Assembly (NCBI GenBank): GCA_030835825.1
Contig: JAURRA010000025.1
Coordinates: 1-50,767 of the forward strand
DNA from: Flavobacteriaceae bacterium
Lineage (GTDB): Bacteria > Bacteroidota > Bacteroidia > Flavobacteriales > Flavobacteriaceae
Direction of reading: 5' to 3'
Length of the DNA: 50,767 bases
How positions within the stretch are numbered: position 1 is the stretch's first letter; every line of letters starts with the position of its first letter. The notes under the pieces were generated by a model, which saw nothing but the letters and a program-made list of their open reading frames with translations, was not told where the DNA came from and did not search any database. The position numbers and the translations under genes are program-made. Below, piece by piece: positions 8,322-19,346 of this stretch.

Positions 8322-9557
8322 TCATCTAAAACGCATTGCCGTAACTGGAGATATTTTGCGAACTAAGACCGAAGGCACCAGTAACATCAACATAGATAAA
8401 AGAAATACACCCATATTGAGGTACAGCCAATGGAAAAAATCGAGACGAACCGGCACTTGGGTGACATAATAAACAGAGGGGTCGAGAGGTACAATGCCAA
8501 ATAAATATTGAACCAACAGAAAGGATAGACCTATTAAGTTTCCGAATAGTAATCCCCAAACAATGAGATGGGCCGCGTTAAGTAAAAATATTTTCTGAAG
8601 ACTATAAGGTTGTCCACCCAGAGCCTGAAGTAAGCCAATCATAGGAGTCCTTTCTAAAATCAACACTAAGAGCGCAGTTACCATATTAATACCCGCGACA
8701 ACAATCATTATAGCAAGTATCATTTGGGTATTTTGGTCGAAAATACCAATCCATTCAAAAATTTCTGTATGCTGTTGGACTACCGTTCTGGCGTCCAAAT
8801 CGTAGTCAATTGTTTGATAAATACTTTCACTGAGAGCATCGATATTGCTGAAATCGTCAGCCATCAGAATAACCTGACCTACCTCATTGTCTTTCCATTT
8901 ATTGAGAATTTGTAGGTGTCTCAAATCTCCGAGTAAATAGGTAGCGTCTAAATCTTGAAAACCAGAATTGACAATTCCAACAATATTGAATCGCCTTTGG
9001 GCAGGCGGTCGATTTTCATCTTCCCTCAAAAAATACATAGCTAACGGATCGCCCAACTTCAACCCCAATCGTTTCGACAAATATTCAGAAATCACCACAT
9101 CATTGCTTAGGGTGTCTCCGATAACCGGGAGTCGACCTTCACGCAAGTAATCTTTGAATTTTCCCCAACCAAACCGATAGTCAAGACCCTTAAACACAAC
9201 CCCCTCAAAGTCTGTCTCCGTGCGAACAATACCAAACTTATTGGCCTCAAGATAAATTGAAGCTATGCCTTCGATCCCATTTAATTGGCGCATTAATTCA
9301 TCTTCAACCTTGACAGGAACCAAGGATTCGTCGGAGCGATTGCCATCAAAATTGGAAATAGAAATGTGCCCCTTGTAGGCGATGATTTTGTTTCGAATTT
9401 CTTGCTGTAACCCAGTGCTAGTAGCAATGGCAATAAGCATTACAATCATGCCAACAGCAATTGCACCAATTCCTATTTTAATGATAGGAGCAGAAACACT
9501 ACTTTTATAGTGTTTGGAACTCATCATTCGCCTAGCGATAAAAAATTCAAACTTCAA
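8322..9557 (-). CDS. LolC/LolE-like ABC permease (FtsX/MacB fold)
   Basis: A 411-aa inner-membrane permease. It has one N-terminal helix (about 26-48), a large periplasmic domain (about 50-270) and three C-terminal helices, the architecture of LolC/E, which extract lipoproteins from the inner membrane in partnership with LolD ATPase. The C-terminal segment LLVLILERTPMIGLLQALGG is the coupling region typical of this family. The start codon is TTG (9557): MKFEFFIARRMMSSK matches the usual N-terminus, and the alternative ATGs ten codons later would remove it. No ATPase gene is adjacent. The divergent namZ-like start is only six bases away. Confidence 0.85.
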   Translation of the reverse strand: MKFEFFIARRMMSSKHYKSSVSAPIIKIGIGAIAVGMIVMLIAIATSTGLQQEIRNKIIAYKGHISISNFDGNRSDESLVPVKVEDELMRQLNGIEGIASIYLEANKFGIVRTETDFEGVVFKGLDYRFGWGKFKDYLREGRLPVIGDTLSNDVVISEYLSKRLGLKLGDPLAMYFLREDENRPPAQRRFNIVGIVNSGFQDLDATYLLGDLRHLQILNKWKDNEVGQVILMADDFSNIDALSESIYQTIDYDLDARTVVQQHTEIFEWIGIFDQNTQMILAIMIVVAGINMVTALLVLILERTPMIGLLQALGGQPYSLQKIFLLNAAHLIVWGLLFGNLIGLSFLLVQYLFGIVPLDPSVYYVTQVPVRLDFFHWLYLNMGVFLLSMLMLLVPSVLVRKISPVTAMRFR

Positions 9558-9563
9558 ATTACT

Positions 9564-10748
9564 ATGATATCAAAATCGATGTTCAAAAATACTCTTTTAT
9601 TCATTGTCTTTTTGACTTGGGGTTGCCAAGGTCAAAATAGCCCTATCATTTTAGGTATTGAGCAATTGGATGCTTATATACCCTTGTTAACTGGCAAGGC
9701 GGTCGGCATTGTCGCGAACGCATCCAGTGTAATTCCAACTGAAAAAGAAACAAAGACACATTTGATCGATAGTTTATTGACTAAAAACATCAATATCAAG
9801 GCTGTGTTTGCTCCTGAGCATGGATTTCGTGGCACGGCCGCCAATGGCGCTTACATTGAGGACGAAGTAGATCCAAATACTAAATTACCCATTCATTCAC
9901 TTCACGGTAAGGACATCAAGCCTACCCCCAATCAGTTGAGCGGAATAGACCTAATACTTTTCGATTTACAAGATGTTGGCCTTCGATTCTATACCTACAT
10001 ATCAACCCTCCACTATGTCATGGAAGCCTGTGCCGAGCAGGGCGTCTCTCTAGTGATCTTAGATCGGCCAAATCCAAACGGTCACTACATTGACGGTCCC
10101 ATACTGGAAAAAGAATATCAAAGTTTTGTTGGTATGCACCCTGTTCCAATTGTCTATGGGATGACCATTGGAGAGTATGCTCAAATGATTAATGGGCAAG
10201 GGTGGTTAAAGAATGGTCTAATTTGCGATATTACTGTAATTCCACTCCAATATTACACCCATCAAACAAGGTATGATCTACCATTGCGGCCATCACCAAA
10301 TCTAAGGACAGCAAAATCCATAAACCTTTATCCGAGTCTTTGCTTATTTGAAGGCACAGACATTAGTATTGGGAGAGGAACCGACACTCCTTTTGAGATT
10401 TTTGGTAGCCCTTCGCTGTCTCCAGAGGAGTTTGATTTTTCTTTCAAACCAGTTTCCCAGCAAGGAGCCGTTAATCCGCCCCACCTCGGGAAACAATGTT
10501 TTGGAAAAGATCTGTCCAAAACCGAAGATTTGAGCGCCATTCGCTTAGACTGGCTTGTTGAAACCTTTAAAGACTACCATAAAAAGGGCATTCCTTTTTT
10601 TAATAATTATTTCAATAAACTGGCTGGAAATTCTGGTTTGAGAAAATCGATTGAACGGGGTGAATCGGCTCAAAGTATCTCTGCGGGTTGGCAAGAAGGT
10701 TTGGAACGATTTAAGGTGATTCGATCAAATTACCTCATCTACAACTGA
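9564..10748 (+). CDS. namZ: DUF1343 / NamZ-type exo-beta-N-acetylmuramidase lipoprotein
   Basis: A 394-aa protein of the DUF1343 family, characterised in other bacteria as NamZ, an exo-muramidase that releases terminal MurNAc from peptidoglycan fragments. The N-terminus has a lipoprotein signal (LLFIVFLTWG before Cys), implying a periplasmic lipid anchor. Conserved stretches include FAPEHGFRG, FDLQDVGLRFYTY, LDRPNPNG, EGTDISIGRGTDTPFEIFGSP and the C-terminal FKVIRSNYLIY. ATG 9564 is chosen because it precedes the signal peptide closely. The 3' end overlaps the convergent sterol-desaturase gene by ten bases. A role in cell-wall recycling is inferred from the family. Confidence 0.88.
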   Translation: MISKSMFKNTLLFIVFLTWGCQGQNSPIILGIEQLDAYIPLLTGKAVGIVANASSVIPTEKETKTHLIDSLLTKNINIKAVFAPEHGFRGTAANGAYIEDEVDPNTKLPIHSLHGKDIKPTPNQLSGIDLILFDLQDVGLRFYTYISTLHYVMEACAEQGVSLVILDRPNPNGHYIDGPILEKEYQSFVGMHPVPIVYGMTIGEYAQMINGQGWLKNGLICDITVIPLQYYTHQTRYDLPLRPSPNLRTAKSINLYPSLCLFEGTDISIGRGTDTPFEIFGSPSLSPEEFDFSFKPVSQQGAVNPPHLGKQCFGKDLSKTEDLSAIRLDWLVETFKDYHKKGIPFFNNYFNKLAGNSGLRKSIERGESAQSISAGWQEGLERFKVIRSNYLIYN

Positions 10749-11575
10749 GGTTTTTGGGTTGGTTTTTGATAGGGCTGAAAGGGCTGGGTGAGCAGTGATG
10801 ATACGCGGCCATTAGCTTCCCTGTCTGGAAATACATCAACACCATATACCAATTTCTCGCGATCTAGGGTCATAAAAGTTCCAAATAAACGGTCCCAAAC
10901 TGAGAAAATATTCCCGTAATTCGAATCGGTGTAGGGCAGCACATGATGATGATGTATTTTATGCATATCTGGAGATACGATAACATAACTCAGCCACCTA
11001 TCTAGTTGCTTTGGCAATAAAATATTGGCGTGATTGAATTGAGTAGCTATTAAGGACATCGATTGGTACAGCATCACAATTCCCATTGGCGCTCCTAAAA
11101 TGACCACACCTATCAAAGTAAAACCAAATCGAACTACACTTTCTAATGGGTGGTGTCTATTTGCAGTTGTGGTATCGACGTTTTGATCAGAATGATGCAC
11201 CAAATGCACCATCCAAAGCGGCTTTACGCGGTGTTCAATGTAATGCGGGAGATACGCTCCAATGAAGTCCATTAAAAGTAACCCTAACAGCACATAAAGC
11301 CATAGGGACATCTCTGGTAACCAATTTAAAATTCCAAATTCATGATTTACAACCCAGTCGGAAGAACTTAACAAAAGAAAGGCTAAAACGAAATTAATCA
11401 CAATGGTTGTCAATGTGAAAAACAAATTGGGAATGGCGTGTTTCCACTTTCTGTAATTGAATTTAAACAAAGGTATAGATCCTTCAAGCAGCCAAAAAAA
11501 GGTTAACCCACCTACTAAAATTATTGACCTATGGAGAGATGTTATTGTTTCAAAGTAAATGAGCAGATTTTCCAT
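10739..11575 (-). CDS. Sterol desaturase / fatty acid hydroxylase family protein
   Basis: A 278-aa integral membrane di-iron enzyme of the fatty acid hydroxylase superfamily. The histidine clusters that bind iron are present: HYIEH (about 110), HLVHH (about 125), NRHHPLE (about 138) and HKIHHHH (about 205), followed by the conserved NYGNIFSVWDRLFGTF. Four to five hydrophobic segments lie before and between them. It probably hydroxylates or desaturates a membrane lipid; the substrate is unknown. It is the last gene of the leftward group that starts with the TPR protein, 23 bp after the YkgJ-like gene. Confidence 0.9.
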   Translation of the reverse strand: MENLLIYFETITSLHRSIILVGGLTFFWLLEGSIPLFKFNYRKWKHAIPNLFFTLTTIVINFVLAFLLLSSSDWVVNHEFGILNWLPEMSLWLYVLLGLLLMDFIGAYLPHYIEHRVKPLWMVHLVHHSDQNVDTTTANRHHPLESVVRFGFTLIGVVILGAPMGIVMLYQSMSLIATQFNHANILLPKQLDRWLSYVIVSPDMHKIHHHHVLPYTDSNYGNIFSVWDRLFGTFMTLDREKLVYGVDVFPDREANGRVSSLLTQPFQPYQKPTQKPQL

Positions 11576-11598
11576 GCGCCGAAGTTAAAAAATAATTT

Positions 11599-12102
11599 TT
11601 AGAGACGAGATTTCATAGCCTCAACAATTTTATAAGCTGCTGGACAAATCCCCACATTGTTGATGGTTAAATGGCTGATCTGATGGAATTTTTTTCGGTT
11701 CGTATGAGGAAACTCTTGGCAGGCTTTAGGACGGTAGTCATAAATACTACAACGATTGTCGTCTCCTAAAAAGGTGCATGGAACACTTTGTAAGACGTAA
11801 TCATTATCCTCGTCTAATCTAAGAAACTGCTCAATAAATGTACATGGTTTAAGCCTGAACAGTTTGGCAATGCGCTCAATGTCTTTGTTTGTAAATAAAG
11901 GGCCGGTAGTCTTACAACAATTAGCGCAATCCAAACAATCTATTTGACTAAAGGTATGGTCATGCAATTCGACCATGACTTGGTCTAAATGTTTTGGTAC
12001 CCTTTTCTTTAATTTCTTAAAAAAGCTTTGGTTCTCTTTTTTCTTTTCAGCGGCCAGTTTGGGCAAAGATTGAATGAGTTTAAGGAATTCAGACAAAATC
12101 AT
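11599..12102 (-). CDS. YkgJ-family cysteine-cluster protein
   Basis: A 167-aa cytosolic protein with the CxxCxxCC cluster CLDCANCC (about 57-64) and later cysteines in KPCTF, VPCTFLGDDNRCSIYDYRP and KACQEFPH. Together these form the zinc- or iron-chelating pattern of the YkgJ/UPF0153 family, sometimes called Fe-S oxidoreductase without proof. Function is unknown. Its ATG overlaps the stop of the amidohydrolase gene by one base (TGATG), a translational-coupling arrangement. Confidence 0.88.
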   Translation of the reverse strand: MILSEFLKLIQSLPKLAAEKKKENQSFFKKLKKRVPKHLDQVMVELHDHTFSQIDCLDCANCCKTTGPLFTNKDIERIAKLFRLKPCTFIEQFLRLDEDNDYVLQSVPCTFLGDDNRCSIYDYRPKACQEFPHTNRKKFHQISHLTINNVGICPAAYKIVEAMKSRL

Positions 12103-13718
12103 CAGTTGATTTGAGGCTCTCCAGAAATGTACGTTTGAAGCACATTGGTCTTTGAAATTCGATCCAGTGGTATAGTCATGATATCTTGATCTAAGACTAT
12201 GAAATCTGCCATTTTTCCGACTTCAAGAGACCCTTTTTCATCAGCTTCAAAGTTGGCGTAAGCTGCCCAAATGGTCATACCGAAGAGAGCATCCTTTCGA
12301 GACAAGGCTTCTTCTGCTTTGAATTTTCCCGCAGGATAGCCATCCAAATCTTGACGAGAAGTAGCTGCATAGAAGGTTAAAAAAGGGCTAACACCTTCAA
12401 CAGGAAAATCGGTACCCAGGGCGATACGGCCATTAACTTCAAGCAGACTATTTAAAGCGTAAGCCCCTTGCATCCGGTCTGAACCCAAACGCTCTTCCGC
12501 CCAATACATATCACTGGTGGCGTGAGTCGGCTGAACCGAAGGCATAATATTATCAAAAGAACTAAAATCCTCAAGTGACAATACTTGAGCATGCTCGATG
12601 CGCCAACGACGATCGTGCTGACCATTTAATAACGCCCTATAGGTGTTTAAGACAACATGATTTGCAGAGTCTCCAATGGCGTGGGTATTCATTTGATAGT
12701 CAGACGCTGCAATGCGCTTTGCCGTTGCTTTGAAATGTTCTATCGAATTAACCGGAAGTCCGTGCGTATGCGGTGCGTCACTATAGGGGGCTCTGAGCAA
12801 TGCCCCTCGAGAACCTAAAGCACCATCGAGGTAATATTTGAAAGACCGCATGTGCAAGCGATCGGTTTTGACAATTGATCGGTTAAGGTAATAATTCAAA
12901 TTATCAGGTGTCGCAGAGGCCATGGCATAAACACGGATTTTCAAGTCTCCAGCGCGCTGCAAACTATCAATCAGTTCTATATCCTCTCTATCCAAGCCTG
13001 CATCATCAACTGTTGTTAAACCTAAAGCCACGCAAGCAGCTTCTGCTGCGAGAAGCGCGTTTATTCTTTCTTGACGGGTTGGCTTAGGCCAATGATTCAT
13101 CACAAGTCTTTCTGCATTGTCAATGAGTACACCTGTAGGCATACCTTGGTCCAAAACAACTGTGCCGCCTTCCATGTGACTGTCTTTTGTAACACCACCG
13201 AGATCCAATGCAGCTTGATTGCACAGCAACGCATGACCATCGATACGAGATAATGCAATCGGTGTGTCGGGAAAGAGCTTGTCTAAAATAGTTTTTTGGG
13301 GGAATTTCTGATCGACCCAATCATTTTGATCCCAACCTCGTCCCATGATATAATCCATCTTATGCTTTTCCTGAAAAACAATGATGCGCTGAACTACCTC
13401 TTCAAAACTTGAGGTACCAACAAGGTCCACTTGCTGTTCTTGAAAACCAAAATTCAAAAAATGACAATGCGCGTCGATTAATCCGGGAACTACCGTTTGC
13501 CCCTCTAAGTCGATAGTATTATCGATATCAAACTGAGATTTCAAAGTACCCTCATCTCCTACTCCTAAAATTTTACCTTCAGATACGGCTACTGCAGAAG
13601 CTGTGGGAAGTTGGTCGTTGGCGGTATAAAAATTTCCATTGACATAGAGATCAATCCGTGATTGTTTAGAACATGAGAAAAGAAATAGGGTAACAAGAAT
13701 AAAGGATAGCTTTGGCAT
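12102..13718 (-). CDS. Amidohydrolase family 3 (YtcJ-like) lipoprotein
   Basis: A 538-aa metal-dependent hydrolase. The signal MPKLSFILVTLFLFSC is a lipoprotein signal with the lipobox Cys at about 16, placing it in the periplasm. The catalytic domain shows the metal-binding HxH in GLIDAHCHFLNFG (about 85-90), the HAIGD motif, RIEHAQ and LGTDFPVEG near the C-terminus. These define the YtcJ/amidohydrolase-3 group, whose members cleave N-acyl or cyclic amides; the substrate is not predictable. The gene follows the barrel gene by 31 bp and overlaps the next gene by one base. Confidence 0.9.
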   Translation of the reverse strand: MPKLSFILVTLFLFSCSKQSRIDLYVNGNFYTANDQLPTASAVAVSEGKILGVGDEGTLKSQFDIDNTIDLEGQTVVPGLIDAHCHFLNFGFQEQQVDLVGTSSFEEVVQRIIVFQEKHKMDYIMGRGWDQNDWVDQKFPQKTILDKLFPDTPIALSRIDGHALLCNQAALDLGGVTKDSHMEGGTVVLDQGMPTGVLIDNAERLVMNHWPKPTRQERINALLAAEAACVALGLTTVDDAGLDREDIELIDSLQRAGDLKIRVYAMASATPDNLNYYLNRSIVKTDRLHMRSFKYYLDGALGSRGALLRAPYSDAPHTHGLPVNSIEHFKATAKRIAASDYQMNTHAIGDSANHVVLNTYRALLNGQHDRRWRIEHAQVLSLEDFSSFDNIMPSVQPTHATSDMYWAEERLGSDRMQGAYALNSLLEVNGRIALGTDFPVEGVSPFLTFYAATSRQDLDGYPAGKFKAEEALSRKDALFGMTIWAAYANFEADEKGSLEVGKMADFIVLDQDIMTIPLDRISKTNVLQTYISGEPQIN

Positions 13719-13749
13719 ATTGTTTTTTTCAAAGATAATCAAGGACTCC

Positions 13750-15456
13750 CTACCAATCAAAATTATAATGTAAACCTACCAAGGCCTGAATTCCTTGAAC
13801 ATTGTAAAAACCCCATCGGGCCTGCTTAGCATCAAAAATATTATTGACACGCGCCTCCGCACTCCACCGTTCTGACAATTTATAAACGGTGCTCCAATTG
13901 ATGTCTGCAAAGCTTGAAATATTAATGGTTTCTGTCAAATTACCATTGGCCTCATTGGTATAAGCCAACACATCTTTTCTATCGCCAAAAAATATACCGA
14001 TTAAACTCATGGACCAATTATCTGACAAAGTCGCATTAATTATTAATGCTGCTTCTAGATTTGGTCGGTTGAAAAAATAAGTTTGTTCGGAGGTCGAAAA
14101 TTGATTGTAAGTTCCACTAACATGAATCGTTGCTTTGTCAAAACCTGTATACATAAGTCCAGTCTTAAAACTACTGGTTTTAATGTCATCAATCAACAGC
14201 CCAAAACTATTTCCGAAGGAATAATCTTGGAATATATTTTCATCTATGGCGTTCAAAACAAACATCGATTTGCGTTTAGCACTCTCATAACTTGCACTTG
14301 CATTCCAACCCCAATCTGATGATAATGGCATTTCAACGCCAGCAGAAAGATGCAGGGGGATTTCCTCGGCGGAAATGCTATTATTGGGTCCGAAATAGTT
14401 ATTCCGAGAAAGAAAATTTCGATAAGTGTGTTGATCGACTTTTCCTGTTGCTTTAAATCTTAGAACTAACGCATCCACTAAATAGGACAAGTGGATATTT
14501 GGAACAATCAAAATTTCTGAAGCATCTGGGTCATCTGTCAACTGGTAATATCCTGATGCTCCCAAGTCCAAAGACAAATCGCCAGACTGAATTTTAAAAG
14601 TCGGTGAGAGCGTAAATAAGGCATGGTCAAAAGTTTGGTCTTCTTCTTGAGGTGTTTGATATTTTCTGTATTGCACAGCAAAGGTGGATTGAAAAGTATC
14701 CTCGAAAGCAGGCAGTTGCGCTAAAGTTTCGGCAAGAACTACAATTTCAGCATTGTCATAATTATCCGCTATACCATCGAATTGAATCTCCATTTTTTCG
14801 AGCCAATCCAAATCTGGTTTCAATACAGAACCCAAGCTGTAGGTCACCCATTGGTGTCCATTATTGATATCATTAAGTTGTTCTTCATGCCACAAACCTT
14901 TGGGCACACCATACCATTGTCTTTTTTGGAAACCAACCAAACCATTAATCGACCATTCATTGCTCCGTGTGATATTAGAGAAATCTAATTCAAGATGAGT
15001 TGCGCTAAAATCATCCTCTAATTTCGTTTCAGCTACGCCACCTTGGGACCCATAATGATCGAACAGCACGCTTACTTTTTTATTTATTGATAGTTTGAAA
15101 GCCCCCGAGAAATCCGCAATCAAAGTACCGTAATTACCTGCCATCATCATAAGTCGATTAGCGAAAAATTTATTGACATCTGTCAAGACAAGTTTTCTAG
15201 TATTTGGCTTGGCGGGATTAAAAACAGAGGCTACTGGAATGGACTGAATTTGGAAAGTGGTTTTCAATTTTTCCACCGCACTGGAGTTATCCGCCTCGGG
15301 CACTGATTTAATTTTTTTTGCTTCGGTGACAGAAGGAATAAAGGTTTTTTCAATATTCACGGTCTGTGTTCCCAATGAGTCATTTTCTATTTGTGCATAA
15401 GTAATAGAAGACATCATGAATAAAATGAACAAGAAAAAGTTGGTTTGTTTATTCAT
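13750..15456 (-). CDS. Plug-less TonB-receptor-like outer-membrane beta-barrel
   Basis: A 568-aa secreted protein with signal peptide MNKQTNFFLFILFMMSSITYA. After the signal comes a proline-rich segment (EKTFIPSVTEAKKIKSVPE ... IPVASVFNPAKPNTRK), then alternating amphipathic strands to a C-terminal strand ending in aromatic residues (LVGLHYNFDW), the outer-membrane insertion signal. It is often labelled a TonB-dependent receptor because the last part (WSAEARVNNIFDAKQARWGF) resembles that family. However, there is no recognisable plug domain of about 150 residues. The start overlaps the TPR gene by eight bases, so the two are probably translated together. Function unknown; a channel or assembly partner is an inference. 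Confidence 0.8.
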   Translation of the reverse strand: MNKQTNFFLFILFMMSSITYAQIENDSLGTQTVNIEKTFIPSVTEAKKIKSVPEADNSSAVEKLKTTFQIQSIPVASVFNPAKPNTRKLVLTDVNKFFANRLMMMAGNYGTLIADFSGAFKLSINKKVSVLFDHYGSQGGVAETKLEDDFSATHLELDFSNITRSNEWSINGLVGFQKRQWYGVPKGLWHEEQLNDINNGHQWVTYSLGSVLKPDLDWLEKMEIQFDGIADNYDNAEIVVLAETLAQLPAFEDTFQSTFAVQYRKYQTPQEEDQTFDHALFTLSPTFKIQSGDLSLDLGASGYYQLTDDPDASEILIVPNIHLSYLVDALVLRFKATGKVDQHTYRNFLSRNNYFGPNNSISAEEIPLHLSAGVEMPLSSDWGWNASASYESAKRKSMFVLNAIDENIFQDYSFGNSFGLLIDDIKTSSFKTGLMYTGFDKATIHVSGTYNQFSTSEQTYFFNRPNLEAALIINATLSDNWSMSLIGIFFGDRKDVLAYTNEANGNLTETINISSFADINWSTVYKLSERWSAEARVNNIFDAKQARWGFYNVQGIQALVGLHYNFDW

Positions 15457-18400
15457 GATCATTAATGATTGAAGCGTTAGTCTCTGCGGCATTTGATTGC
15501 AAGTTTTCAAGTAATTTATTGACCTCTGTTGAAATATCGGGGTAAGCATTAAAATTATCAATGAGGTGATTCAAGATATAATTGGCTTGATAATCATCAT
15601 TTAAGGCAATAAAATTGCGAGCCATTAACAATAATCCTCGCGCTGAAAACTCGGGATATTCGGGATACTCTTTAACAAGATTTTGTAATTGGTCATTTGA
15701 AGATTGAAATTGATTTTCTTGGTTCAAGAAAAAAGCCTGATAATACTTGGCCTCTGCCAAATAATTCTTCGAAACAGCTATATCTTGCAACTCAGAAAAT
15801 GATCGCTTTGACTGATCAAAAAGATTAAGTTCCAACTCGCATCTTCCTTTGATAGCCCATGTCTTGGACAACAAATCAGTTCCCAAATCTTGCACCTCCA
15901 TCAATAAACGAGCTTCTGACAGGGCATCGGTATACCCCTGTGTATCATAATAGATTTGCATTAAGTTGGAATGAGCATAACTTTGATTTTTTGGTGAAGG
16001 GTGATTGCTTGCTAAGCGTTTAAGAGGAGCAATAGCATCTGAAGATTTCCCCATGATGAGATAGGCATCCGAAAGCTGAATAAGTGCTGACTCAGAATAT
16101 GCATTCGTGGGTTGATCAATAATAAATGTCAAATGTGGAATAGCTTTTGGTAAATCGTTACTCTCAAGGAAAAGTTCACTCAAATATACATGCGATTGGA
16201 ATTGGTGTGAACCGTTGGGGAAATCAATTAAATATTTTTCTAATAGGCGTATGGCCTTAGTCACATCTCTTTCGATATATCTTTTTTGAGCGGATTCGAA
16301 ACTGAGGTCGTCAAACTGCGAATTATCGAAATCCATGAGATTAGATTTTTTAAGCCAGGCAGCATAAGCAGAAATTTCGCCCATATCAATATATATCTGT
16401 TCAATTGTGGTCAATGCTTGTCTAGATTCTTCGGGGGCAGAACGATTCAAGGCAACGGGTTTTAATGTACTCAGGGCATCACTGTTTTTACCCATATTAT
16501 AGAATAGCAATCCTTTTCTCAGGTTGGCTTTAGAAATCAAAGGACTATTAGGGATTTCAACCACCAAGCGGCTATAGCATAAAATAGCTTGGTCGTTTTT
16601 TTCTGCCTTGGCTAAGTCGTTCCCCAATATTAACAGAACATCATCGCGCCATGGCGATGAGGGAAAATCTATAGAGAAATCATTAAGTAACTGATTTTTT
16701 TTTGTCAGTTGATCTAAAAGACCCAAACATATGGCTTGCTGAAAAACTGCGTAATCATTATTCCATTTGGTCAGATTAGAAGCCTCGACATAAGCGTCAA
16801 GGGCCACACGAAAATGACTTTGGGCAAATTCACTGTCGGCAAGTCGAAGCAAAGCATCTTTTTTCCTTGCCATATCAGAAAGGCTATTGTAGGCGGAATC
16901 GAAATAAGATGCTGCACTAATAAAATCAGCAGTACTGAAATAGGCATAGCCAAGAGCATAGTCTAACTGCTTAGACTCTACAGCGTTTTCAAACGTTTTA
17001 TTTGATCGGACATTTCGGAACAGCCTAATTGCAGTTTGGTGGTTTTTAGAATCATAGGCCAGTTCTCCCAGCCAATAAGTTGAGCGCAGGCCAAGCAAAG
17101 AAGCGGCGTTACTCTCTGATGTCCTTTCAAAAAATTGTCGCGCTTTTTGGAAATTTCCATCTTGAAAAGCACTAATAGCCAAATTAAAGGTAACCGTCTG
17201 CAATGTTGCTTCATCCATAGCTTTTTTTCCAGATGCTATTATTTCATATGCGGCCTGATAATTTCTGGATGTCACATAAGCGTTAACCAAAAGCAACTCC
17301 ATTTCTTCCCTTGCAGACGAGTTAGGATATTGCGTCAGGTAGTTACTCAAAATTATAGGAACTGGCTGGAAAGGGTTGCCAATGTCATAACTAAGTTTAG
17401 CATATTGAAGGCTTGCATCGGATTTAATATCTTGATCGAAGTTGAGTTCAGAAGCATTTTTAAAAGCTGTTAAGGCTTCGGACTTTTTATCAAGTGCCAA
17501 ATAGCACTGAGCTAAATGATGGTAGGCGTTTTGAGAAACCGCATCATTGCCTTCCAAGATTCGGTTGAATTCGCTAATAGCCAATTCAAATTTATTTTGC
17601 TTGAAGTAAATATAGCCCAACTGATAAAAGTCAACATGTTCCCATTTACCTCTTATTCCTTTGTAATTTTTCAAGTAAGGCAGCGCCTCATCGTATTTTT
17701 TTAAATTGAAATAACTCTCTCCAATAATTTTAGAAAGCTGGGACACATCTTCTGATACACTTTGTTCGAGACCACGCAGAGCAAAGTCAATGGCCTTTTG
17801 AAATTCACCCTCTTTGAAGCTCTTATCTGCCTGATAGTAATTTAGACTAGACGATTGCTCTTTGGGGTCCTGCAATTGATCAAAGTATAGGGAAGCATTG
17901 AAATAATCGTCCCCTTCATAAGCCATGAAGCCCAAATAATATTTGGCGTTCTCTTTATAAATGGGACTATTGACAACCCTACTAAAATCTTTTTGGGCCT
18001 GTTCATATTTTTTACCTACAAAATAGCAGTATCCCCTTTCAAAGTATAACTCATCTCTTTGATTGGATGTAAGTTTTTGCTCATCTACTTTTTCAAACCA
18101 TTTTAAAGCATATGCAGATTGACGATTTCTAAAATAAAATTGAGCAACATCAAAATAAGCTGAGTTACGACGAGGATGTGCAGGATATGTATAAATAAAA
18201 TCATCCATCAATTGCTCAGCATTTTTTTGTTTTGTCCTCACCGCTGAACTAGCCGTATAATACGCTGACTCTGCTTTGATAAAATCGCTAGATGATGATT
18301 CACTGACACTCTCAAAAAGAGTTATTGCTGCCTGATATTGCCCTGAATCAAATAGACTAACAGCTCTCTGAAACTGACTGATTTCGGGGTCATAGGCGCC

Positions 18401-18472
18401 AGATGATTGAGACAACAATGGAGAACTAATGACCAGTAGCAGTAAAACAATAAAAGATTTTAAATTATTCAT
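15449..18472 (-). CDS. Large exported tetratricopeptide-repeat protein
   Basis: A 1007-aa protein with signal peptide MNNLKSFIVLLLLVISSPLLS. The rest is almost wholly TPR-type helix pairs. Recurrent blocks include FDSGQYQAAITLFESV, YYFVGKKYEQAQKDFSRV-like units, YFKQNKFELAISEFNRIL, YFSTADFISAASYFDSAY and YLIMGKSSDAIAPLKRLA, so roughly twenty repeats are plausible. Such solenoids scaffold protein complexes; in the periplasm of Bacteroidota they accompany secretion and assembly systems. The eight-base overlap with the following beta-barrel gene implies a working pair. It heads a five-gene leftward operon and is divergent from ftsE. Confidence 0.85.
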   Translation of the reverse strand: MNNLKSFIVLLLLVISSPLLSQSSGAYDPEISQFQRAVSLFDSGQYQAAITLFESVSESSSSDFIKAESAYYTASSAVRTKQKNAEQLMDDFIYTYPAHPRRNSAYFDVAQFYFRNRQSAYALKWFEKVDEQKLTSNQRDELYFERGYCYFVGKKYEQAQKDFSRVVNSPIYKENAKYYLGFMAYEGDDYFNASLYFDQLQDPKEQSSSLNYYQADKSFKEGEFQKAIDFALRGLEQSVSEDVSQLSKIIGESYFNLKKYDEALPYLKNYKGIRGKWEHVDFYQLGYIYFKQNKFELAISEFNRILEGNDAVSQNAYHHLAQCYLALDKKSEALTAFKNASELNFDQDIKSDASLQYAKLSYDIGNPFQPVPIILSNYLTQYPNSSAREEMELLLVNAYVTSRNYQAAYEIIASGKKAMDEATLQTVTFNLAISAFQDGNFQKARQFFERTSESNAASLLGLRSTYWLGELAYDSKNHQTAIRLFRNVRSNKTFENAVESKQLDYALGYAYFSTADFISAASYFDSAYNSLSDMARKKDALLRLADSEFAQSHFRVALDAYVEASNLTKWNNDYAVFQQAICLGLLDQLTKKNQLLNDFSIDFPSSPWRDDVLLILGNDLAKAEKNDQAILCYSRLVVEIPNSPLISKANLRKGLLFYNMGKNSDALSTLKPVALNRSAPEESRQALTTIEQIYIDMGEISAYAAWLKKSNLMDFDNSQFDDLSFESAQKRYIERDVTKAIRLLEKYLIDFPNGSHQFQSHVYLSELFLESNDLPKAIPHLTFIIDQPTNAYSESALIQLSDAYLIMGKSSDAIAPLKRLASNHPSPKNQSYAHSNLMQIYYDTQGYTDALSEARLLMEVQDLGTDLLSKTWAIKGRCELELNLFDQSKRSFSELQDIAVSKNYLAEAKYYQAFFLNQENQFQSSNDQLQNLVKEYPEYPEFSARGLLLMARNFIALNDDYQANYILNHLIDNFNAYPDISTEVNKLLENLQSNAAETNASIINDHE

Positions 18473-18662: not shown

Positions 18663-19346
18663 ATGAGTGACTCTGTAGTATCATTTCGAGGCGTTTCAAT
18701 AGTTCAAGGAGATAAAGAGATTTTGACCAATGTAAATTTTGAGATGAAAAAAGGAGATTTTGTTTATCTCATCGGAAAAACAGGAATGGGAAAAAGTAGT
18801 TTTATAAAAACTTTAAACGGAGAATTGCCATTAAAATCTGGAGAAGGATCGATCGTTGGTTACGATCTGAAACAACTCAAATCAAAAGATATCCCGATGC
18901 TGCGTCGGCAAATTGGTGTTGTATTTCAAGATTTTAAACTCTTAGGTGATCGGAGTATTAATGACAACCTGAAATTTGTTTTACAAGCCACAGGTTGGAA
19001 AGACAAAAAAGCTATTCAAGAAAAAAGTAGGGTTGTTTTGGATAGCGTGGGCATGTCAAGTTCTGGAAATAAATTTCCGCACGAATTATCAGGGGGTGAG
19101 CAACAAAGGGTTGCCATTGCGCGAGCTCTGCTCAATAATCCGGAGTTGATATTGGCCGATGAACCAACTGGTAACCTCGATCCACAAACCAGTTTTGAAG
19201 TAATGGAGGTCTTACGAGAACTCAATAGCCAAGGGCAAACTTTTCTTATGGCGACACATGATTATGCCATACTATCCAAATACCCATCCCGAACTTTAAA
19301 GTGCGAGAATAGTAGCGTTTTTGAAGTAGTTCAACGTCAGTCTTAA
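18663..19346 (+). CDS. ftsE: Cell division ATP-binding protein FtsE
   Basis: A 227-aa ABC ATPase. The Walker A is GKTGMGKSS (about 38-46), the Q-loop is VVFQDFKLL, the signature is LSGGEQQRVAIARAL (about 140-154), Walker B is LILADEPTGNLD and the switch His lies in MATHD. FKLLGDRSINDNL after the Q-loop is typical of FtsE, which with FtsX controls peptidoglycan hydrolases at the septum. No ftsX follows: the next gene starts immediately after the stop (TAAATG) and is a glycosyltransferase. An LolD-type assignment is possible, but the sequence is closer to FtsE. Confidence 0.88.
   Translation: MSDSVVSFRGVSIVQGDKEILTNVNFEMKKGDFVYLIGKTGMGKSSFIKTLNGELPLKSGEGSIVGYDLKQLKSKDIPMLRRQIGVVFQDFKLLGDRSINDNLKFVLQATGWKDKKAIQEKSRVVLDSVGMSSSGNKFPHELSGGEQQRVAIARALLNNPELILADEPTGNLDPQTSFEVMEVLRELNSQGQTFLMATHDYAILSKYPSRTLKCENSSVFEVVQRQS

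Follow-up and report, generated by a model that had tools for sequence, protein, structure and literature searches.

What does a long exported tetratricopeptide repeat (TPR) protein do together with an outer-membrane barrel that has no plug? The question is raised by a locus of a Flavobacteriaceae bacterium (GenBank assembly GCA_030835825.1, contig JAURRA010000025.1, positions 1 to 50,767, a stretch of 50,767 nucleotides hereafter called the window), in which the gene of a TPR solenoid protein runs into the gene of a TonB-receptor-type barrel. The initial annotation had taken the two for a coupled pair, heading a five-gene operon, and had thought of an export or assembly machine. Here, the pairing of the two genes is established by its recurrence in related genomes, and the barrel is established, on its predicted structure, as a BtuB-type TonB-receptor barrel without plug. 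As to function, a Ton/Tol-type role in division is the best-supported explanation, with about an even chance of being right; roles in export, energised uptake or assembly are possible.

The barrel has no family in Pfam or PHROGs, and its C-terminus gives weak matches to models of TonB-dependent receptors, one of them over residues 508-584 (E 1.8e-4). A search of PDB sequences with the single barrel sequence returned no match at E<=1, and with a profile of the family (A6) only siderophore receptors and BtuB were matched, in each case in their C-terminal portions. A first AlphaFold2 model built from 28 sequences reached a mean pLDDT of 77.1, and its best PDB match in Foldseek was BtuB (1nqg, E 1.7e-18). 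A second model, from 71 sequences, reached pLDDT 85.5 and pTM 0.79. Both models place the barrel at about residues 100 to 566 and leave residues 17-93 below pLDDT 50. With VIA-align, residues 97-566 of the second model were superposed on BtuB 135-594 (3m8b; Z 22.0, rmsd 3.1, 392 aligned residues), which identifies the fold as a beta-barrel of the TonB-dependent transporter (TBDT) type. Because the alignment with BtuB starts at residue 97 and residues 17-93 are disordered, the protein is predicted to be a TonB-dependent transporter barrel minus its plug. A clear plug in the predicted structure had been named beforehand as grounds for giving up the idea of an unplugged barrel; none appears in the 71-sequence model, in which residues 17-93 have no confident structure, and this segment has no Pfam match.

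In the place of the plug, the barrel carries an N-terminal tail that is disordered and nonetheless conserved. Among 71 barrels, tail columns 33 and 35 hold a hydrophobic residue in 99% and column 43 in 100%; alanine stands at position 46 in 60/71, lysine or arginine at 48 in 71/71, and tyrosine at 68 in 70/71, the window having phenylalanine. The strand TQTVNIEK, roughly residues 9-16 when counted from the presumed mature N-terminus, recurs in other loci as EEIEVVRPYKP (L149) and, in other classes, as LPEFIIEGK (L178) and LPEFIVTGK (L180). Its alternating hydrophobic pattern looks like a TonB box, and binding of TonB is putative on these sequences; we take it to resemble the boxes of BtuB (DTLVVTA) and FhuA (DTITVTA).

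The pairing was followed through several samples of genomes. A barrel match was obtained in 53 of 99 genomes of the order, including all 16 sampled from the family of the window, and the TPR gene lay beside the barrel gene in 29 of 30 order loci fetched, the locus of the window among them. In the exception (G036), the TPR gene lies elsewhere, with 36% identity, and FtsE adjoins that TPR gene. All 80 named loci of Flavobacterium and its relatives have the TPR gene before the barrel gene on the same strand, often with about 1 kb between them; in F. johnsoniae CI04 (L067) this gap holds a PhzF-family gene (9003-9866), and we noticed a gap of similar size in many other Flavobacterium loci. The TPR gene was also directly upstream in 35/35 loci of other orders of the class, a count that excludes the G036 locus (L157), and upstream in 38/40 loci that come mainly from further families and were taken from places printed for class-wide barrel matches.

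Class-wide, profile A6 matched in 190/197 genomes, four of these matches (G399, G404, G471 and G526) being weak (E 1e-6 to 1e-4) and possibly ordinary TonB receptors, and the TPR profile (A7) matched in 95/99 at E<=1e-30. The four genomes missed by the TPR profile, namely G393, G399, G404 and G436, lack a confident barrel as well (none, 1.3e-4, 5.4e-5 and none, respectively). In G413, which yields no barrel match, a TPR fragment lies at the end of a contig. Within 1.2 kb and on the same strand, the TPR gene was found upstream of the barrel in 72 of 75 class genomes, that of the window included; these 75 are the genomes for which both coordinates were printed, a selection that favours strong matches. 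The other three (G403, G424 and G452, of families f94 and f106) have both genes, apart from each other. In two such loci (L240 of G403, and L215 of f106) the barrel is kept with genes for HU, TolQ, TolR, a TonB-like protein and FolC. Among genomes with the two genes apart, 5/5 of those searched contain a TPR homologue, and so do the three unlinked of the 75. Three genomes (G381, G417 and G431, the last with 5% contamination) hold the pair in duplicate, each copy with its TPR gene next to a barrel gene. In family f95, no confident barrel was seen (G404, G436 and G462) and G404 and G436 also lack the TPR gene; a joint loss of both is possible there.

In other classes of the phylum, 16 loci were chosen by frame length (about 530-620 aa), a choice that favours plugless barrels, and profile A6 was built without their barrels. 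Eight of the 16 have a TPR gene of 1000-1094 aa directly upstream. The other eight, all of family f36, have none there; the four f36 genomes searched hold a TPR homologue elsewhere, in a frame of 995-1008 aa (20-21% identity, E 7.7e-14 to 2.7e-35). Since the same gene order recurs across the class, the pairing is more than chance. The coupling proposed in the initial annotation thus holds, with one discordant genome (G435), and the independent occurrence of the two genes that would have spoken against it was looked for and is not the rule.

Two sets of neighbours recur around the pair, and they differ between lineages. One is FtsE, which adjoins the TPR gene in divergent orientation in the window, in 78/80 loci of the Flavobacterium set and in 16/40 further-family loci; the contigs of the two Flavobacterium-set loci without it start inside or near the TPR gene. 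For the ATPase in the window, TIGR02673 FtsE is the best match (E 4.3e-69), at 232.4 bits below the cut-off of 264.85. The other set is a motor cassette. TolQ and TolR are encoded downstream of the barrel, on its strand, in 16/35 class loci (all 16 of families f16, f21 and f22), in 11/16 other-class loci (8 of the 11 from f36) and in 2/40 further loci (L215 and L240). The cassette thus follows the barrel in 27 of 51 class and other-class loci, mostly with a HU-CCDC81/SPOR gene before it. In f16, f21 and f22 the order is constant (16/16): TPR, barrel, HU-CCDC81 and/or SPOR, TolQ, ExbD/TolR and a TonB/TolA-like gene, with FolC in 15/16. At E<=0.01, the gene after the barrel matched HU-CCDC81 in 18/29 and SPOR in 15/29 class loci scanned (six of the 35, L144, L146, L150, L153, L160 and L163, had no clear next gene on the same strand and were left out), and SPOR in 14/16 other-class loci. 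No TolB or Pal was found among the neighbours scanned; no genome-wide search for them was made.

The genome of the window (1.62 Mb in 30 contigs, with one barrel match and one TPR profile match) keeps a TolQ-TolR-TonB-FolC cassette unlinked to the pair (L195), and also a HU-CCDC81/SPOR gene (L197). Scored with profiles of the barrel-linked cassettes, L195 exceeded the general ExbB/ExbD cluster of the same genome for both TolQ (249 vs. 155 bits) and TolR (125 vs. 38 and 26 bits). That second motor cluster (L196, G000:C2:58000-69000), which served as the control, consists of ExbB, two ExbD-like genes and a gene for a small membrane protein; next to it is encoded an exported protein of 232 aa, possibly a small protein of the outer membrane. 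By eye, a hot-dog-type acyl-CoA thioesterase gene follows the HU-CCDC81/SPOR gene (L197:4665-5195).

The TPR protein has a hydrophobic N-terminus ending ...SPLLSQ in the translated frame. It matches many TPR-type Pfam families, and above cut-off only such families, YfiO and BTAD included. Its best NCBIfam model is tol_pal_ybgF (TIGR02795; 162 bits, cut-off 90.1, 7 stretches), a score that TPR repeats inflate, and the best natural PDB match of the TPR profile is CpoB (6g5s, 5.3e-19). A second TPR match, in an 875-aa frame away from the barrel locus, was seen in another genome (G100:C1:1170328-1172604, E 7.1e-213).

Taken together, these observations lead us to a reading to which we assign close to an even chance, namely a proton-driven, force-transducing Ton/Tol-type machine acting on the outer membrane in growth and division, whose periplasmic and outer-membrane end would be formed by the TPR protein and the barrel. 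The energised, division-related character of this reading is suggested by the recurrent neighbours FtsE, HU-CCDC81/SPOR and TolQ-TolR-TonB-like. SPOR domains are reported to bind denuded septal glycans (PMC6895207). A barrel with a TonB-box-like strand but no plug, as predicted here, could not work by plug removal. We infer that the TolQ-TolR-TonB-like cassette is part of the machine, and likewise its division role, the pulling and all binding events. The TolQ-TolR motor would drive the TonB/TolA-like protein across the periplasm, and the C-terminal domain of this protein would grip the TonB-box-like strand in the flexible tail of the barrel. Force would then pass to the barrel and so to the outer membrane, with no nutrient pore being opened. 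A coordinating part like that of CpoB may fall to the TPR solenoid, through binding of the barrel tail, of peptidoglycan enzymes or of both. The HU-CCDC81/SPOR protein and FtsE may tie the machine to the septum.

A more specific proposal, which we put forward tentatively and with rather less than even confidence, is that this is the missing Bacteroidota equivalent of Tol-Pal: a TolQ-TolR-TonB/TolA-like motor would pull a box-bearing plugless barrel, joined by a CpoB-like TPR partner of giant size and by a HU/SPOR protein reaching from DNA to septum, and would so exert force on the outer membrane in division. A published study reports that Bacteroidota have no identifiable tol-pal loci, proposes PorE and expects other systems (PMC12204202). 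PorE and the TPR protein are alike in being periplasmic proteins of the same phylum, and PorE has been proposed for outer-membrane tethering; unlike the TPR protein, in which only TPR-type families were recognised, PorE is, by the same account, a lipoprotein combining parts that resemble CpoB, TolB, a carboxypeptidase and Pal (PMC12204202).

With Tol-Pal and its CpoB, the present system shares a TPR protein and SPOR and FtsE neighbours, and it would also share the motor if the TolQ-TolR and TonB/TolA-like genes co-encoded in many lineages are what their names suggest, but it has an integral barrel instead of Pal/TolB. In Escherichia coli, ybgC is the first gene of the tol-pal operon. A YbgC-family thioesterase gene likewise lies near the TPR gene in six f17 loci (L139:3740-4195, L150, L153, L159, L170 and L173), of which one was scanned: the L139 protein passes the cut-off of the YbgC/FadM family model TIGR00051 and stays below that of the tol-pal thioesterase model (70.9 bits). 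Several of these loci have the thioesterase gene on the other strand, separated from the TPR gene by a DoxX-like gene. The TPR protein differs from CpoB in being about four times as long (28 kDa for CpoB, PMC7391070). CpoB/YbgF is characterised by a coiled coil joined to a short TPR domain and by its link to PBP1B and Tol. BtuB-type TonB-dependent transporters resemble the barrel in fold and in the TonB-box-like strand near the mature N-terminus; they differ in having a plug, and in lacking the upstream TPR gene found here in nearly all loci and the motor cassette and SPOR gene found nearby in many lineages.

Several results weigh against the Ton/Tol-type division reading. The samples (order, Flavobacterium set, other orders, further families and class-wide) overlap and hold related genomes, and their counts are not independent. 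In G435 the TPR gene is complete but no barrel was matched. FtsE lies beside the TPR gene in only 1/35 class and 0/16 other-class loci, and TolQ-TolR is unlinked to the barrel in the window, in 19/35 class loci, 5/16 other-class loci and 38/40 further loci (among the 38, L238 has TolQ-TolR on the opposite strand). No locus among those scored for the cassette (51 and 40) combines FtsE with TolQ-TolR. NCBIfam does not separate TolQ from ExbB, as the general ExbB of L196 was also called best as tolQ. Of four TonB-like proteins compared with Pfam, that of L174 passes the TonB_C cut-off, that of L138 stays below it, and those of L145 and of the window genome's own cassette (L195) have no TonB match. 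(A large frame after TonB in L174 was considered as a TPR gene and dismissed, being unlike one by eye and having no TPR profile match.) Housekeeping genes named by eye as FolC, HolA and PyrB also stand among the neighbours. Finally, the TPR protein passes the BamD model TIGR03302 (82.8 bits, cut-off 81.4, 4 stretches) and PF13525 YfiO (29 bits, cut-off 25), so the TPR model matches are unspecific.

The last two points are where two of the alternatives start. In one, the pair would be accessory to the biogenesis of outer-membrane proteins or of type IX secretion, the TPR protein serving as BamD-like scaffold, and both models just mentioned would agree with this. BamD is an outer-membrane lipoprotein of roughly 240 residues, and the TPR protein, with 1007 aa and (by eye) no cysteine ending its signal peptide, is not a BamD-type lipoprotein. 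Moreover, TPR models match TPR proteins generally and the ybgF model scores higher, while the PorW/SprE model NF052312 gives 61.7 bits, under its cut-off of 250. Nor does the pair correspond to the subunits newly described for the F. johnsoniae BAM complex: BamM is a surface lipoprotein with a PPI fold, BamG is FadL-like, and BamP is part-periplasmic and confined to Flavobacteriaceae (PMC12611786). The pair, a barrel of BtuB type with a TPR solenoid, occurs class-wide and is not BamG, BamH, BamM or BamP, and its identification with BamM/BamP, which we had considered, is ruled out by these descriptions. We regard an assembly role as improbable. We attach an equally low probability to the view that the pair is real and has another function, its links to TolQ-TolR-TonB, HU/SPOR and FtsE being inherited neighbourhoods devoid of functional meaning. 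FolC, HolA and PyrR/PyrB (by eye) and, once, topoisomerase I also adjoin the pair, and the kept neighbours vary by lineage, as this view would have it; in the topoisomerase case (L168, family f24) the DNA topoisomerase I gene comes after the pair. It accounts poorly for the recurrence of TolQ-TolR downstream in distant classes (f36, f46, f47 and f57), for the SPOR gene after the barrel in nearly all other-class loci, and for a TolQ-TolR link that persists where no TPR gene is adjacent (L215 and L240).

An exporter is the alternative closest to the initial annotation, which had named export or assembly; neither is the best reading, as the neighbours point to a division machine, although both are possible. 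The plugless barrel might release a polysaccharide, a lipid or a surface lipoprotein, with the TPR protein gating or feeding the pore. A TPR scaffold with an unplugged barrel is the recurrent export layout of AlgK-AlgE, PgaA, BcsC and Slam, and no plug fills the lumen in our model. Still, the present barrel is of the TonB-receptor type and bears a TonB-box-like strand, and Slam, the only one of these systems compared by model, fell under cut-off (PF24575, 16.7 bits vs. 35.2). Near-universal presence in the sampled class genomes, mostly with one TPR match, fits a dedicated exopolysaccharide exporter badly, and no polysaccharide synthesis cluster is among the recurrent neighbours identified, though glycosyltransferase genes lie beyond FtsE in the window and in many Flavobacterium loci. 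Export seems unlikely to us. Quite unlikely, too, is an energised importer or lipid recycler, in which the TPR protein would replace the plug and TonB pulling would open the pore for a substrate from the envelope, such as peptidoglycan fragments or phospholipid. The TonB-receptor barrel, its box-like strand and the cassette nearby in many lineages would all suit such a transporter, but the HU/SPOR and FtsE neighbours suggest division over uptake, and no substrate-binding lipoprotein is among the recurrent neighbours identified.

A division role of the Ton/Tol type is a concrete candidate that can be tested, given a pair present in nearly all sampled class genomes with recurrent FtsE, SPOR or TolQ-TolR-TonB-like neighbours. 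If true, it would fill the outer-membrane constriction role for which the phylum has no identified usual machinery. It would also bear on the mechanism of TonB, as a receptor that keeps its box and loses its plug would uncouple pulling from pore opening. In keeping with the earlier statement that neither protein has an assigned role, no description of the TPR-barrel pair was found among the open-access papers searched; work on the HU-CCDC81 domain may already cover part of the neighbourhood.

Table 1. Features of the TPR-barrel locus, in window coordinates.
Feature	Position	Strand	Basis or remark
TPR solenoid protein, 1007 aa	15449..18472	(-)	ATG start; signal peptide; no lipobox seen
Plugless TonB-receptor-type outer-membrane barrel, 568 aa	13750..15456	(-)	
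Overlap of TPR gene end with barrel gene start, 8 nt	15449..15456	(-)	sequence
Barrel residues 23-96, disordered but conserved N-terminal tail in the place of the plug	15169..15390	(-)	pLDDT<50 for 17-93; column conservation
Barrel residues 30-37 (TQTVNIEK), TonB-box-like strand	15346..15369	(-)	column conservation, 71 barrels
FtsE-like ABC ATPase, divergent from TPR gene	18663..19346	(+)	TIGR02673
Amidohydrolase lipoprotein (Amidohydro_3)	12102..13718	(-)	PF07969, E 1.8e-81; local passenger, outside conserved module
CxxCxxCC protein	11599..12102	(-)	PF03692; local passenger
Fatty-acid hydroxylase family membrane enzyme (FA_hydroxylase)	10739..11575	(-)	PF04116; local passenger

The two frames of the pair are as first described. 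The barrel lies in an open reading frame of 13750-15561 (-), whose ATG at 15456 gives the 568-aa protein beginning MNKQTNFFLFILFMMSSITYAQ. The three genes downstream likewise encode what had been proposed, an amidohydrolase lipoprotein, a cysteine-cluster protein and a membrane enzyme; the first starts with an ATG at 13718 and has, by eye, a lipobox-like N-terminus, MPKLSFILVTLFLFSC. What did not survive is the five-gene operon as a unit. Within the fetched flank, a relative of the amidohydrolase was found in 8/80 Flavobacterium-set loci and 0/91 others (E<=1e-20). No relatives of the FA_hydroxylase and CxxC genes were found in 171 related loci at the same threshold, nor at E<=1e-8 in the 80 Flavobacterium loci. 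Because relatives of the downstream genes are rare or absent at related loci, the five-gene arrangement is local. Scans for promoters and terminators stayed at the level of shuffled sequence (25 promoter-like sites vs. 23.1 expected; 7 terminator-like vs. 6.9). Near the region, a membrane permease gene of the LolC/E or FtsX kind was recognised by eye at 8322-9557 (-) of the window.

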